Shown in pieces: positions 35,973-41,418 of a DNA stretch of 64,000 nucleotides; positions within the stretch are counted from its first letter, which is position 1; each line of letters begins with the position of its first letter. Source of the stretch: Actinomycetota bacterium (GTDB taxonomy: Bacteria; Actinomycetota; Geothermincolia; Geothermincolales; RBG-13-55-18). The DNA lies in contig JACIXC010000003.1 in assembly GCA_014360655.1 (NCBI GenBank), forward strand, positions 186,001 through 250,000, in the 5' to 3' direction. The notes below the pieces were generated by a model, which was not told where the DNA came from, ran no database searches, and was given only the letters and a program-made list of their open reading frames with translations. The position numbers and the translations under genes are program-made.

Positions 35973-36446
35973 CTACCCCCGCCCTTCCTCGAACCAGCCG
36001 ATGGTTGCGTCGGGGATGGAGTCTATCTTCGCGCTGTAGGGCTTGATGTCGACGATGGCGCTCCCGTCCACGGCGTCCAGCCCCCGCACCACCAGGCGGT
36101 TCCCCTCGCGCCGCAGCAGCTCCACCACGCAGAACTCCACCGGGTTGGGACGCGAGGGGGAACGGCAGGCGAACACCCCGCGCACCTCGGGCCCCCAGGG
36201 CGTGACCGTCTGCAGAACGCCGCGGTCAGCGAGGTGGCCCCAGTAGAGCAGGATGAGGTAACGCGAAGCCTCCACGTCCTTGAGGCCGTCCGCGTAGTCC
36301 TCGTATATCTCCAGCTCCGCCTCCTCGCGGGAGAAGCGTCCCTGGAAGGGCGCCTCGTCCATGGTGCGGTAGGGCGACCTTATCACCCCTATGGCCACGA
36401 GCTCCATCCCGCCGCGCTCACCGGGACCGTTATCACCTTTTTCCAT
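35973..36446 (-). CDS. trmO: tRNA (adenine(37)-N6)-methyltransferase TrmO/TsaA family
   Basis: 157 residues, a beta-barrel SAM-dependent enzyme that methylates t6A37 in some tRNAs. MELVAIGVIRSPYRTMDEAPFQG and the SAM-binding SRPNPVEFCVVELLRREGN are diagnostic, as is DVKPY-like VDIKPYSAKIDSIPDA. ATG 36446 follows GGAGGGAGAGGTG. It overlaps the 3' end of the ABC ATPase gene and is the last gene of the metal-uptake operon; in several anaerobes TsaA-like genes sit in similar places, so a metal-linked role is possible. Confidence 0.88.
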   Translation of the reverse strand: MEKGDNGPGERGGMELVAIGVIRSPYRTMDEAPFQGRFSREEAELEIYEDYADGLKDVEASRYLILLYWGHLADRGVLQTVTPWGPEVRGVFACRSPSRPNPVEFCVVELLRREGNRLVVRGLDAVDGSAIVDIKPYSAKIDSIPDATIGWFEEGRG

Positions 36447-37245
36447 CGCCTGCACCTCTCCCTCCGACGTCTCCCCCGGCATGGCGGCACGCGCTCACCG
36501 GTACCACCATCCTCGTGTCTCCCCGTGTCTCCACCTCCACCTTCACGCCGTAGACCTTCTCCATGCTCTCCTCGTCGATGATCTCCGGGCCACCGCAGGC
36601 GAAGACGGAACCCCCTCTCAAAAGGATGAACTTGTGCGAGAAACGCAGGGCGAGGTTGACGTCGTGGATGGCCATGAGGGCCGCGATGCCCCTCTCCGCC
36701 ACCACCCTCCCCAGCGTCTCCATCACCTCGAACTGGTTCCTGAGGTCCAGGTTGCTCGTGGGCTCGTCCAGCAGCAGGATCCCGGGCTCCTGTGCCAGGG
36801 CCCTGGCGAGCATCACCTTCTGTTGCTCCCCCCCGCTCAGCTCGTCCAGGTAGCGGAGGGCCAGGTCCTCGAGGTTGAGGGCGCCCAGCACCTCCTCCAC
36901 CACCTTCAGGTCCCCGGCGCCCGTGCCCCAGCCGATGTGCGGCCTGCGGCCCATGAGCACGGCGTCGAAGACGGTGAGCCGGCGGCCGCCGCCGTCCCTC
37001 TGGGCCACGTAGCCCATGCGTCGCGCCACCTCCATGCGTGCCAGGCGGGAGGTATCCTCCCCCGCCAGGAGCACCACGCCCGAGCGCGGCCGCAGGATGC
37101 CCAGGATGCACTTGAGCAGGGTGGTTTTCCCTGCCCCGTTGTTCCCCAGGATGGAGCAGATCTCCCCCCTCTTGACATCGATGGAGACCGACTCCAGCAC
37201 CGGCCTGGTGCCGTAACTGAAAGCGATGCCGTCGACCGTCAGCAT
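36433..37245 (-). CDS. iron/metal-chelate ABC importer, ATP-binding protein
   Basis: 270 residues, FecE/BtuD type. Walker A SILGNNGAGKTTLL, Q-loop VAQRDG, signature LSGGEQQKVMLARAL, Walker B ILLLDEPTSNLDL and H-loop MAIHDVNLALRFSH. It powers the adjacent FecCD permease. ATG 37245 shares its A with the permease stop TGA. The C-terminal ~25 residues after VEVETRGDTRMVV look disordered. Confidence 0.93.
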   Translation of the reverse strand: MLTVDGIAFSYGTRPVLESVSIDVKRGEICSILGNNGAGKTTLLKCILGILRPRSGVVLLAGEDTSRLARMEVARRMGYVAQRDGGGRRLTVFDAVLMGRRPHIGWGTGAGDLKVVEEVLGALNLEDLALRYLDELSGGEQQKVMLARALAQEPGILLLDEPTSNLDLRNQFEVMETLGRVVAERGIAALMAIHDVNLALRFSHKFILLRGGSVFACGGPEIIDEESMEKVYGVKVEVETRGDTRMVVPVSACRHAGGDVGGRGAGDGKR

Positions 37246-38318
37246 CACGCCCTCCTGTATCCCTTGGCCAGCAGGTAGAGGAAGAGGGGAGCGCCCATGA
37301 AGGAGGTTATCGCTCCCACCGGGAGCACCACCGGGGCGATGATGGTCCTGCTCAGGGTATCCGAGGCGAGAAGGAGGAAGGCCCCCATGGCGCACGCGCC
37401 GGGGATCAGGTAACGGTAATCGCCCCCGATCACGCGCCGGACGAGGTGGGGGCTCACCAGCCCCACGAAGGCGATGATGCCCAGGAAGGAGACCGCCACC
37501 GCGGTCACCAGGGAGGCCAGGAACATTCCCACCATGCGCGTGCGCCCCACGTTCACCCCCAGGCTCCTGGCGGTGTCGTCGCCGCTCTCGAGCGTATTGT
37601 AATTCCAGCGGTTGAGGATGAAAAAGGCGGCGACGGGAAGGGTGACCGCGGTCATGATCGCCAGTTCCTGCCAGGAGGCCCTTCCCACGTCGCCGAAGGT
37701 CCAGAAGACGATGGACGCCACCTGCACGTCGTTGGCGAAGTACTGCGTGATGACCGTCCCCGCGGAGAAGAGCGAGCCGAAGGCTATGCCCGCCAGGATC
37801 ATGGCCTCGGGCGAGATCCCCTTGTACCTGGCCAGGAAGAGGACGGCCAGGGTGGCGGAGATGGCGCCGGCAAAGGCGGCCACGGTGACCAGGTAAGGGT
37901 TCTTGATGAGAACCGCGTCGGCGCCCGTGCTCTGCACGCTTCCCGCCCCCATGGCCACGATGGCCAGGGCGGCGCCGAAGGCCGCCCCCTGCGAGACCCC
38001 CAGGGTGTAGTCGGAGGCGAGGGGGTTGAGGAGCACCCCCTGCATGACGCATCCCGCCACCGCCAGACCGATCCCGGCCACCACGGCCGCAAGGACGCGC
38101 ACCAGCCTGATGTGGATGACGATCTGCGTGGTGCGCTGGTCCGCCTGCCCGAAAAGCGCCTTCAGCACCTCGAGGGGAGTGACGCCCGCGGAACCGATGG
38201 TCATGGAAATTATTCCCAGTATAAGGGTGGCGCATGCGACGCCGGCGATGAAGAGCGCCCTGCGCCGCGTGTAGGCGCGGTACGCGCTCCCCGCGGAACC
38301 CGTGGCCGCCGTGTCCAC
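37245..38318 (-). CDS. iron/metal-chelate ABC importer, FecCD-family permease
   Basis: 357 residues with about ten membrane helices. Family motifs include LASDYTLGVSQGAAFGAALA, GGDYRYLIPGACAMGAFLLL and LPVGAITSFMGAPLFLYLLA near the end. It forms the dimeric channel for siderophore, cobalamin or other chelates together with the ATPase and binding protein. GTG 38318 follows AGGTGAGGACA. Only one permease gene is present, so it is likely a homodimer. Confidence 0.93.
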   Translation of the reverse strand: MDTAATGSAGSAYRAYTRRRALFIAGVACATLILGIISMTIGSAGVTPLEVLKALFGQADQRTTQIVIHIRLVRVLAAVVAGIGLAVAGCVMQGVLLNPLASDYTLGVSQGAAFGAALAIVAMGAGSVQSTGADAVLIKNPYLVTVAAFAGAISATLAVLFLARYKGISPEAMILAGIAFGSLFSAGTVITQYFANDVQVASIVFWTFGDVGRASWQELAIMTAVTLPVAAFFILNRWNYNTLESGDDTARSLGVNVGRTRMVGMFLASLVTAVAVSFLGIIAFVGLVSPHLVRRVIGGDYRYLIPGACAMGAFLLLASDTLSRTIIAPVVLPVGAITSFMGAPLFLYLLAKGYRRA

Positions 38319-38382: not shown

Positions 38383-39519
38383 CTACAGCGAACCCAGGTC
38401 GATCTTCTTGAAGCCTCCGAAGTCGGCCGCCATGCGCCGGTACAGGGCCTCGCCCAGCAGGAACCCGTAGATCTCGTCGGCCTTCGCCTCCGGGTCGACA
38501 TCCTCGAAGGCCTCCGGGAACACGGCCTTGCCCATGAAATAGGCGTCGGCGATGGCGGTGTCGATGTTGGTGGTGTAGTAGTTATAGGGCAGGTAACCAT
38601 AGACCTTCCCTTCCTTCACCGCCTTTAGGGAGTTGTAGAATCCCGGGTTGCCCGCGTAGTCGTCCCTCACCATCTGCAGCCCCGACTCGTCTATGAAGAT
38701 GATGTCGGGGTTCCAGGCTATGAGCTTTTCCTTGTCGATCATCACGCTTCCCTTGCTGCCCGTCTCGTCCACCACGTTGACGGCTCCGATGGAGGCCAGG
38801 GGCGGGAAGTTGCCCTGGGTGCTCTCGATGCCGTGGGTGCCCTTCATGCCTATGGCCCCCACGTAGACCCTCGGCTTCTCGCCAGCCGGGATATCCGCGG
38901 TGCGCCCTGCGAGGTCGTCCCGGCATCCCTTGATGTAGGCGATGACCTCCTCCGCCCTCTCTTCTTCGCCGATGATCTCCCCGATGAGGGAGATGGAATC
39001 GTATATCTCCCGGTCGAAGGTGCCGAGCTGGCCGTAGCTCAGCACCACCACGGGGATGCCCGTCTTCGACTGCAGCTCGTCGGCCTTGGCCGCATCCACC
39101 AGGTAGGCCACGAAGATCACGTCCGGGTCCACGCTGAGCAGCATCTCCGGATCGGGGGTGGAGTCGGGGCCTCCCTGCCCGATCACCGGCAGGTTGAGCA
39201 GCTCGGGGTGGGCCATGATGTACGGCCTCCCCGTGGACCACTGTTTCTCCACGTTCTCGATCCCCACCACCTTGTCCGCGCCACCCGCGTAGCAGACCAG
39301 CCGCAGAGCGCCGGGCCCGATGGCCGTGACCCTCTCCGCGGGCACGGTGACCTCCACCTCGCGCCCCGCGAGGTCGGTGATGATCCTGCTCCCCGGCCCG
39401 GAGGCCTCGCCCCCGCCCTTGCCGCCGCAGCCGGCGAGCGACAGCGCCGCCAGAAGGACCGCCGAAAGCAGGATCAGGGTGATGGTGCCTCTCAGCAACT
39501 TCCTTGCCTCTCCCTTCAT
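38383..39519 (-). CDS. metal-chelate ABC importer, lipoprotein substrate-binding protein
   Basis: 378 residues. Signal peptide with lipobox ALSLAGC, then a periplasmic-binding domain of the cluster A-II (FepB/BtuF) type: ITDLAGREVEVTVPAERVTA, GPGALRLVCYAGGADKVVGI, DPEMLLSVDPDVIFVAYL. ATG 39519 follows AAAGGAGAGGGCGGC; an in-frame ATG 10 codons upstream lacks such a site. Co-occurrence with CooC and a methyltransferase suggests nickel, cobalamin or another cofactor metal as cargo rather than plain siderophore iron. Confidence 0.9.
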   Translation of the reverse strand: MKGEARKLLRGTITLILLSAVLLAALSLAGCGGKGGGEASGPGSRIITDLAGREVEVTVPAERVTAIGPGALRLVCYAGGADKVVGIENVEKQWSTGRPYIMAHPELLNLPVIGQGGPDSTPDPEMLLSVDPDVIFVAYLVDAAKADELQSKTGIPVVVLSYGQLGTFDREIYDSISLIGEIIGEEERAEEVIAYIKGCRDDLAGRTADIPAGEKPRVYVGAIGMKGTHGIESTQGNFPPLASIGAVNVVDETGSKGSVMIDKEKLIAWNPDIIFIDESGLQMVRDDYAGNPGFYNSLKAVKEGKVYGYLPYNYYTTNIDTAIADAYFMGKAVFPEAFEDVDPEAKADEIYGFLLGEALYRRMAADFGGFKKIDLGSL

Positions 39520-39696
39520 GCCGCCCTCTCCTTTCGCGTCATCTTCCATTGCCTTGCTTGCGTTTTTCCGCCACGGGCGCCGCGTTTACCTGCCCACACG
39601 GGGGTTTTGCGCGGCATGCCCTCGCGGGCCGGCAAGCGTGGGCCACGCCTCGGGCGCCGTTTCCATCCCCCGCACGCGCGCCGCTCCCCCCGGCGT

Positions 39697-40482
39697 TCAG
39701 GGCCTGAGGCCGGCTTCCACCGCCGCCAGGACGCCGCGCACGGCTTCGCCCAGCCTTTCATCCGCCACGGGTCCGCCCTCGAGGTTCGCCCGCGCCACTG
39801 TCTCCGAATAGGGGACCTCGGCGATGGCGGCCAGCCCCGCCTGGGCCAGCTTATCCACCAGAACCTGCCTTACCCTTTCATCCACCTTGCTGAGTACCAC
39901 CCCGCACGGTTTCCCTGCCTCCTCCGCGAGGCGGCATGCCTTCTCCGCGAGGGAAACCGCCTCCCGCGAGGGATCGACCACCGCCAGGACGTAATCCGCT
40001 CCCTCCAGGACGCCGCGTCCGAAGTGCTCGATGCCCGCCTCGGTGTCCACCAGCACCCATTCCCCGTCCCCGGCGGCTATGCTCTTCAGGAACGAGCGCG
40101 CCACAACGCCCATGGGACAGGCGCAGCCCTCCATGCTGTGCTCGATCTTACCGATCCTCACCATGGACAGAACGCCGTTACCGCCGGCGACGTCCGCGGG
40201 CAGGCCCGCCGGGTCCAGGCTCTCCTCGAAGAGCCGCAGTTCCTCGTCACCCTCCCCCCTCAGGCGGGCCATGAGCTTCTCGCCCACCGCCCGCTTGCCG
40301 CCCAGGTAGCCCATGACGGTGTTCGCCGGCGGCTCCACCCCCAGCATCCCGGCCAGGCCGAGGTTGGACTCGTCCGCGTCCACCACCAGCACCTTCCCCC
40401 GTTCGCCCAGCTCCCTCGCGAGGAGGGCCACCAGGGTGCTCTTACCGCTTCCACCGCGGCCACAAACCAAGACCTTAGGCAT
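39697..40482 (-). CDS. cooC: CooC-type nickel-insertion/maturation ATPase
   Basis: 261 residues of the MinD/CooC family. Deviant Walker A CGRGGSGKSTLVALLA, VVDADESNLG, the CxC metal/dimer motif GCACPMGVVAR, and VDTEAGIEHFGRG. CooC inserts nickel into CO dehydrogenase. ATG 40482 follows GGAGGTGAAACGA; the frame is open 34 codons upstream to a TTG that overlaps the methyltransferase stop, but those residues are not family-like. Second gene of the metal-uptake operon. Confidence 0.88.
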   Translation of the reverse strand: MPKVLVCGRGGSGKSTLVALLARELGERGKVLVVDADESNLGLAGMLGVEPPANTVMGYLGGKRAVGEKLMARLRGEGDEELRLFEESLDPAGLPADVAGGNGVLSMVRIGKIEHSMEGCACPMGVVARSFLKSIAAGDGEWVLVDTEAGIEHFGRGVLEGADYVLAVVDPSREAVSLAEKACRLAEEAGKPCGVVLSKVDERVRQVLVDKLAQAGLAAIAEVPYSETVARANLEGGPVADERLGEAVRGVLAAVEAGLRP

Positions 40483-40580: not shown

Positions 40581-41216
40581 TCAAGCCTTATCCCCGGCCC
40601 CGTCAAGCCCTTTCGGTCCGGGTTTGCGCGCCACCAGAACGAACATGTCCTCGCCGTCGTGCACGCGGACCTCCACGAACCCGGCGCAAGAGAACATCTC
40701 CTCCATCTCGTCCATGCCGGGAAGCATGTCCAGGCCCACCTCGCCCCCGATGAAGCGGTGCAGGGCATTGACCTCCTCCCGGCTCTCGTTGTGGCATACC
40801 GTCGCCCTTCCCCCCGGCCTGAGGATGCGGAACATCTCCTGGGCGGCACCCCGCTTGTCGGCCACGTGCGGAAAACAGTTGTGGCACACCACCTCGTCGA
40901 AGGAACAGTCGAGGAACGGGGTGTCCGCGAGGTCGGCGTGTATGAACTCCAGGTTGGGGCCCGCGTGTTTCTCGCGCGCCAGGGCCAACATGCGCTCCGC
41001 GATGTCCAGGGCGGTGACGTGCCCGGCCTCCCCAACCGCCTCCAGCAACCAGGGTATGATGAGGCCGGTGCCGCATCCCGCGTCCAGCACCCTGCTTCCC
41101 GGCCTGATCCCGAGGCCGCGGATGATGCGTTCGCTCACCGCCTTCCTCTCCACGGCGTTCTCGTCGTCCCAGGTATCCGCCCTCTGGTTGAAGAAGTCGC
41201 TTACCGCCGTCATCAT
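40581..41216 (-). CDS. class I SAM-dependent methyltransferase
   Basis: 211 residues. Motif I VLDAGCGTGLIIPWLLEAVG, acidic motif VTALDIAERMLALAREK, and motif post-I VVCHNCFPHVADK. Substrate unknown. Starts at ATG 41216 (GGAG upstream); a second ATG follows directly. First gene of the CooC/ABC operon, behind a structured leader and terminator. In this context it might modify a metallophore or cofactor, but that is inference. Confidence 0.85.
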   Translation of the reverse strand: MMTAVSDFFNQRADTWDDENAVERKAVSERIIRGLGIRPGSRVLDAGCGTGLIIPWLLEAVGEAGHVTALDIAERMLALAREKHAGPNLEFIHADLADTPFLDCSFDEVVCHNCFPHVADKRGAAQEMFRILRPGGRATVCHNESREEVNALHRFIGGEVGLDMLPGMDEMEEMFSCAGFVEVRVHDGEDMFVLVARKPGPKGLDGAGDKA

Positions 41217-41285
41217 GGTCCGCGCTCCCTCGTCTCCTCCACCCAAGGCCGCCCCCTTCGGGCGGCTGTGACCCGGTAAAAACAA

Positions 41286-41385
41286 GGCCACGAAGGCCGT
41301 AGCCTTCGTGGCCACAATCTATGCTACGTCGAAACCGCTCTTCACGCGGCGGCTTCTCGCCGCCCATGCTTCTTTCCCAAGCGGT
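41286..41385 (-). promoter_or_regulatory. riboswitch-like leader with intrinsic terminator
   Basis: On the minus strand the RNA begins near 41385 with a compact domain: helix P1 ACCGCTT (41385-41379) with GAGCGGT (41340-41334), an asymmetric loop GGGAAAGAAG opposite AA, and P2 CATG-GGCGGC closed by GAGAA with GCCGCC-CGTG. A linker follows, then a perfect 12-bp hairpin GGCCACGAAGGC/GCCTTCGTGGCC (41313-41286) with a TTGTTTTT tail. CGTAGC in the linker (41328-41323) can pair with GCTACG of the terminator loop (41303-41298), an alternative fold. No known class was recognised; it is too short for a cobalamin riboswitch. Confidence 0.65.
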
Positions 41386-41389
41386 AAAT

Positions 41390-41418
41390 ATTTTAGGACG
41401 GTTCCCTTTACATTACAA
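41390..41418 (-). promoter_or_regulatory. promoter of the methyltransferase-cooC-ABC operon
   Basis: On the minus strand: -35 TTGTAA (41418-41413), 17-nt spacer, -10 TAAAAT (41395-41390). It would start transcription within a few bases of the P1 helix of the leader. Confidence 0.65.

Follow-up and report, generated by a model that had tools for sequence, protein, structure and literature searches.

A predicted attenuator RNA ahead of nickel and cobalt uptake genes in bacteria that nearly all lack NikR

The NiCo (czcD) riboswitch (RF02683) folds around a four-way junction and lies mostly before exporters, and the guanidine-II riboswitch (mini-ykkC) consists of two hairpins with ACGR-like loops. 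The target RNA of the ANTAR proteins (EutV, NasR, AmiR) is defined, as described in PMC3369931, by two hairpins with hexanucleotide loops carrying A1 and G4. At the level of DNA, NikR sites upstream of nikMQO and nikK have been described in other deltaproteobacteria (PMC545781), and, by the account given in 2009 in PMC2667541, more than half of the organisms that have NikABCDE lack NikR, from which NikR-independent control was inferred.

The leader element described here can be set against each of these systems. It has the layout of an ANTAR target (PMC3369931), with two small hairpins of similar loops (hp1 and hp2), a variable linker, and a second hairpin that overlaps and excludes a terminator, but its loops (AUGAA, AGAA, CGAA, ACGAA, AAGAA, UGAA and ACGGA) are not hexanucleotides with A1 and G4, and the genes behind it serve metal uptake, whereas those of the ANTAR targets are eut, nas and ami genes. 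With guanidine-II it has in common the two hairpins and ACGR-like loops (ACGAA/ACGGA); however, it has pentaloops, the hp1 loop is not kept as ACGR, and no Rfam match was obtained. The NiCo riboswitch has the same nickel/cobalt theme, and some genomes hold both RNAs, but the NiCo model (cut-off 37 bits) has no match at the element sites: it exceeded its cut-off in 5 of 22 element genomes, and none of the places listed was an element site. Finally, the targets nikMQO, nikK and nikABCDE are those of the NikR regulon (PMC545781, PMC2667541), which differs in using a DNA operator instead of an RNA element; NikR_C was found in only 1 of the 22 element genomes, where it was marginally over the cut-off, compared with 5 of 14 control genomes.

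The window analyzed was a 64-kb stretch (64,000 nt) of the genome of an Actinomycetota bacterium, and all features of the leader and its operon lie on its minus strand (Table 1). The promoter and strong terminator proposed in an earlier, sequence-only reading of this DNA are both present. The promoter pattern occurs once in the leader, compared with 0.2 expected from shuffles, and the RNA probably starts at about position 41383. This gives about 107 nt of RNA ahead of the operon, followed by the terminator, which is separated by 60 nt from the predicted ATG of the methyltransferase gene. The terminator stem is single-copy in the window's genome. The leader folds at -50 kcal/mol, compared with -35.5 kcal/mol in dinucleotide shuffles (z -4.3). 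Pfam agrees with the operon content given by the sequence-only reading (methyltransferase-CooC-ABC-TrmO). The solved chain nearest to the binding protein (38386-39549) is 2etv_A (E 1e-118), titled a putative iron(III) ABC transporter binding protein; what the window's protein really binds may be worth re-examining.

Table 1. Leader and operon features in the window.
Feature	Coordinates	Strand	Remarks
Sigma-70-like promoter, -35 TTGTAA / 17-nt spacer / -10 TAAAAT	41390..41418	-	9/12 consensus bases
Hairpin hp1, GGCGGC-GAGAA-GCCGCC	41348..41364	-	Loop type (A)NGRA/NGAA (here GAGAA); kept in relatives
Hairpin hp2 (predicted antiterminator), GUGGCC-ACGAA-GGCUAC	41299..41315	-	-7.8 kcal/mol; predicted to exclude terminator; covariation
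Intrinsic terminator, GGCCACGAAGGC-UACG-GCCUUCGUGGCC + U-run	41277..41313	-	-24.2 kcal/mol; 12-bp stem
Class I SAM methyltransferase, first operon gene	40581..41216	-	ATG at 41216 inferred from ribosome-binding site
CooC-like P-loop ATPase	39697..40482	-	Pfam; start inferred
Fec/BtuF-type substrate-binding lipoprotein (Peripla_BP_2)	38383..39549	-	Pfam
FecCD-type permease	37245..38318	-	Pfam
ABC transporter ATPase	36433..37254	-	Pfam; start approximate
TrmO-domain protein	35973..36482	-	Pfam

Rfam 15, proposed earlier as a check on the leader, gave no family at its gathering score anywhere in the window and no match over the element at 19 further loci; the best sub-threshold match, isrL (19.6 of 35 bits), covers the terminator alone. 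NiCo, cobalamin and any other Rfam class were ruled out by the absence of matches at the element, and the suggestion that a cis-regulatory leader of no assigned class precedes a metal-importer operon proved to be correct. A literature search, with preprints and subscription journals outside its scope, found no published nickel-uptake leader of this kind, and the family is apparently undescribed.

By DNA search, the leader was found in 6 of 39 genomes, the window's own counted, and the stem pattern CCACGAAGGN{4,8}CCTTCGTGG occurs in exactly one copy in each of 10 of the 15 family genomes. The ten family leaders share the terminator and a hairpin GNGG-loop-CCNC with a GAGAA-, AAGAA- or GGGAA-like loop, and by inspection most of the nine other than the window's own have a TATAAT-like box just 5′ of the leader. 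The next genes are in most cases those for the methyltransferase and CooC and, in one genome (G006), the binding protein. The leader is also present in Candidatus Solincola daggyaiensis and in an Actinomycetota MAG, both relatives of the window. Three family genomes have a cobalamin riboswitch (L011-L013, ~1865-2199; 107-113 bits) on the opposite strand, divergent to the leader.

Comparison of the ten leaders bore out only part of the compact two-helix domain that had been proposed. The inner hairpin, hp1, is kept, whereas the outer helix, ACCGCTT/GAGCGGT, is present in the window yet forms no common helix in the family, and the asymmetric purine-rich loop between the two helices is not conserved among relatives. 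The proposed pairing of the terminator loop with the linker (CGTAGC/GCTACG) is likewise present in the window and not conserved. In the ten leaders, the longest upstream stretches complementary to the loop of the terminator measure 6, 5, 5, 4, 0, 4, 6, 4, 6 and 4 nt, and since each leader's complement differs in sequence, this pairing looks like chance. A leader peptide was also considered and rejected: the ATG frame found in the window and in G001 stops after 8 codons in G014, and by inspection G006 and G013 have no ATG, while G005 has a different frame.

A covariance model built from the ten leaders (R1) found weaker copies when run over 396 genomes of the phylum, of which 26, counting those used for training, reached E <= 0.01. 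Most R1 matches lie just 5′ of CbiM, Fec-type, NikA-like or ZnuA-like genes. Three matches were set aside as doubtful (L040, which is coding, L042 and L038), L040 and L042 looking false, and two weak matches in the window's genome (C4 and C2), which precede unrelated genes, were dropped.

A wide scan of 84,980 species genomes with the pattern CCACGAAGGN{3,33}TTCGTGGTTTT yielded at least 118 sites in at least 117 stretches. The listed sites are mainly from Desulfobacterota and Clostridia, and also from Nitrospirota, Actinomycetota, Latescibacterota, Synergistota, Armatimonadota and Chloroflexota. Because the listed sites (at least 118) were collected with an exact pattern, they are bound to share CCACGAAGG/TTCGTGG. 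Matches occurred in 23 of 345 genomes from the phylum of Desulfosarcina (25 rows, two of them both strands of one site), compared with none for the reversed-pattern control. Twelve named genomes had 21 places compared with 0 for the reversed pattern; one of these places (G405:C11), without a U-run, looks like chance. A further model, R3, found the element in 22 of 22 genomes, which had been chosen as carriers, and found exactly two copies in the window's genome, the window leader and a cbiM leader.

The sequence-only reading had tied its proposal to a conserved structure in orthologous leaders. Such a structure was found: the conserved core is hp1 together with hp2 in competition with the terminator, and it extends across several phyla. 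The form of hp2 is NNCC-ACGRA-GGNN, and its 5′ arm and loop double as the 5′ arm of the terminator (CCACGRA/UYCGUGG). The alignments show a predicted antiterminator and a predicted terminator that are mutually exclusive and each covary, the arrangement of a transcription attenuator. Among 95 dereplicated listed sites, the hp2 pair -1/+1 was Watson-Crick in 73 (permuted mean 42.3, 0 of 5000 permutations as high), pair -2/+2 in 50 (31.9, 0 of 5000) and pair -3/+3 in 38 (27.2, 43 of 5000); in the same sites pairs -4 and -5 were not significant and slid registers were lower. The hp2 covariation score was 0.287 in an 88-sequence alignment, compared with 0.169 shuffled (0 of 500), and 0.391 compared with 0.188 (0 of 500) in 48 sequences with variants, in which the loop ACGAA changes to ACGGA or GCGAA and the partner arm changes along with it. 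The terminator helix scored 0.179 compared with 0.107 (0 of 500) in these 48 sequences, with A-U to G-C changes in 8 of the 48, part of the set having been picked by a pattern that requires the partner arm, which raises the terminator score. The CbiM leaders in the variant set were reached by gene.

For the hp1, hp2 and hp3 counts, 11 of the 118 listed sites, which have a gap of <18 nt and by eye are chance or coding matches, were left out, and two short-gap Solincola sites were retained. Eight further suspect loci were dropped from the alignment for a second model, R2, and kept in the hairpin counts where the gap allowed. At many sites hp2 is short (2-3 bp): over all 118 listed sites, false ones included, 31 have no extra pair and a further 31 have one. 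By a strict rule (stem of at least 5 bp, loop ANGRA or NGAA), hp1 was found 40-80 nt upstream of hp2 at 27 of 92 listed sites (shuffle mean 0.9, maximum 3), 0-40 nt upstream at 14 of 93 (shuffled 1.3) and 80-120 nt upstream at 5 of 91 (shuffled 1.1). No hairpins above shuffles were found beyond 130 nt upstream of the listed sites, and hairpins with other loops upstream of hp2 were not enriched there. The strict rule held at only 47 of 95 listed sites, with a C-G closing pair in 37. A third hairpin (hp3) with an NGAA loop lies inside the terminator at 29 of 93 listed sites, compared with 1.55 shuffled. By eye, tandem element units stand before one gene in five CbiM leaders (L227, L228, L230, L231 and L235, belonging to G012, G014, G004, G008 and G010), as if two attenuators were placed in series.

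The genes behind the element were identified from 126 downstream ORFs, comprising the longest within 600 nt of each listed site and the 15 nearest alternatives. Pfam assigned 18 of these to DUF4198, which we take to correspond to NikK, 14 to CbiM, 7 to PDGLE, 6 to TonB plug and 6 to methyltransferases, as well as 5 each to SBP_bac_5, FmdE and ECF, 4 to BPD_transp_1, and 2 each to DUF3842 and Peripla_BP_2. NCBIfam names among them include CbiM and the nickel protein NikA, and one listed site (L060) appears to precede LarE, of nickel-pincer cofactor synthesis. Other downstream genes, those for TonB receptors, methyltransferases, a ZnuA-like SBP and DUF3450, have no obvious nickel link, and the substrates of ECF and Fec-type systems can include cobalt or corrinoids. 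With the reversed pattern as control, the element stands before nickel uptake genes above chance, and these assignments show that the element mainly precedes genes for nickel/cobalt uptake and handling, in genomes nearly all without NikR. From this gene context we infer nickel as the signal, as well as the sign of regulation; it points to nickel over Fe, Mo/W, cobalamin or SAM, which had been named with it as possible ligands.

A prediction was set up that the CbiM genes of the family should carry the element even without the exact pattern. Pfam CbiM was found in all 15 family genomes (17 matches). The motif CC-ACGGA-GG was present in 14 of 14 readable CbiM leaders, that is, those with upstream DNA and a start codon, and a matching UCCGUG/CCGUGG arm in 11 of the 14, the others having shorter or different arms. 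In the window's own genome, the element lies 15 nt 5′ of cbiM-PDGLE-cbiQ-cbiO (L277; 43 bits with R3).

Clusters of the element occur in Desulfoscipio (L269-L271), Formimonas (L272-L274) and Desulfotruncus (L275-L276), where the copies precede CbiM, NikA/B/C/D/E-like, ZnuABC-like, FmdE and SAM methyltransferase genes. In Candidatus Formimonas warabiya (L272-L274) and Desulfoscipio geothermicus (L269-L271), long islands with many element copies hold repeated NikA-type transporters, FmdE and SAM methyltransferases of one family (IENYWxGxAxxYS); these islands might serve to produce a nickel chelate or to import one. Desulfotruncus has a TrmO-CooC fusion behind the element, 64% (TrmO) and 56% (CooC) identical to the window's proteins, and Desulfosarcina has an SBP behind it that is 43% identical to the window's binding protein. 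The window operon is therefore a member of the regulon and not a chance neighbor. The fusion, at L275:3004-4245 in Desulfotruncus arcticus, starts 7 nt 3′ of an element copy, and its existence suggests that TrmO and CooC in the window cooperate in handling metal and not in modifying tRNA.

No known protein regulator, among NikR, ANTAR and CsrA, was common to all 22 element genomes. The ANTAR domain is missing from three (G004, 98% complete; G006, 97% complete; and G406) and CsrA from six, including the window's own (99.96% complete), so neither can be the general reader of the element.

We are confident that these leaders form a true family of attenuators that regulate nickel(/cobalt) uptake. 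Attenuation by competing hairpins is of a known kind; new are the sequence class, the target set and probably the sensor. The bare RNA is expected to terminate by default, given a difference in stability of about 20 kcal/mol in favor of the terminator over hp2: at 107 sites the median energies are -22.4 kcal/mol for the terminator and -2.5 kcal/mol for hp2, and the terminator was the more stable in 107 of 107 sites computed. With hp2 so much the weaker, antitermination would need a binder of hp1/hp2. Most likely this factor would be a putative RNA-binding protein, possibly dimeric, that recognizes the ANGRA loops in both hp1 and hp2. Under nickel scarcity, the factor would stabilize hp2, RNA polymerase would read through and the importers would be made; when nickel is sufficient, it would release the RNA. 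Since the targets are uptake genes, the binder should act at low nickel, which suits an apo-protein no less than a metal ligand. The full protein-antitermination mechanism we hold with only moderate confidence. The term "riboswitch-like", used in the sequence-only reading, is apt for a regulatory leader; in the strict sense, of an RNA that binds its ligand alone, it describes a candidate reading only.

That candidate is best represented by a metal riboswitch, in which the RNA itself would bind Ni2+ (or Co2+) via the repeated ANGRA loops and shift the balance between hp2 and terminator. The recurrence of one loop type in as many as three hairpins is consistent with this, as are the nickel/cobalt gene context and the precedent of guanidine-II as a two-hairpin riboswitch, and no known protein regulator is common to all element genomes; but hp1/hp2 stabilized by metal would turn uptake genes on by nickel, and a terminator favored by metal would need a strong competitor, when hp2 is far weaker at every site computed. 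Given the weakness of hp2, a metal riboswitch would work only if the sign were reversed or if a competing fold lay hidden. Apart from short hairpins whose spacers vary, little of the architecture is conserved, and none of the element sites has an Rfam NiCo match. Overall, we consider a metal riboswitch unlikely, and it is slightly more doubtful still that tandem ANGRA hairpins, as a protein-free sensor, bind Ni2+ directly and set the hp2/terminator balance in place of NikR.

A small-molecule riboswitch, responding to a nickel-linked cofactor, metallophore or corrinoid and not to the ion, is improbable. A compound made by the cell is thinkable, with SAM methyltransferases, TrmO, FmdE and CooC recurring downstream and the window's Fec/BtuF-type importer belonging to a chelate-carrying family, but plain ion transporters (CbiM, DUF4198) stand behind the element without a synthesis gene, and no pocket-like junction is conserved. 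We regard it as very improbable that the element is a target of ANTAR proteins, acting by dual-hairpin antitermination, or of CsrA, whose site the CC-ACGGA-GG variant presumably resembles: the loops are of the wrong type for ANTAR, and each of the two genes is absent from some element genomes, as described above. Least credible is a plain terminator, repeat or leader peptide without a regulatory role, since, strong and palindromic as the terminator is, and although in the window and in G001 an ATG frame runs through the leader, the element is single-copy in each of ten family genomes before related operons, hp2 covaries, gene families are enriched downstream, and the frame is not maintained.

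The element may explain how nickel import is controlled in bacteria without the usual nickel regulator, and its position before the same transporter families in genomes without NikR makes NikR-independent control directly testable. Whether nickel is sensed for uptake by an RNA or by a nickel-responsive RNA-binding antiterminator, the answer would be new. If protein-free, it would be the first RNA to govern nickel uptake across Desulfobacterota, Clostridia, Nitrospirota and deep Actinomycetota. The regulon also provides candidate nickel-handling functions for the TrmO-CooC fusion, FmdE, the SAM methyltransferases and DUF3842, in anaerobes that depend on CODH and hydrogenases.
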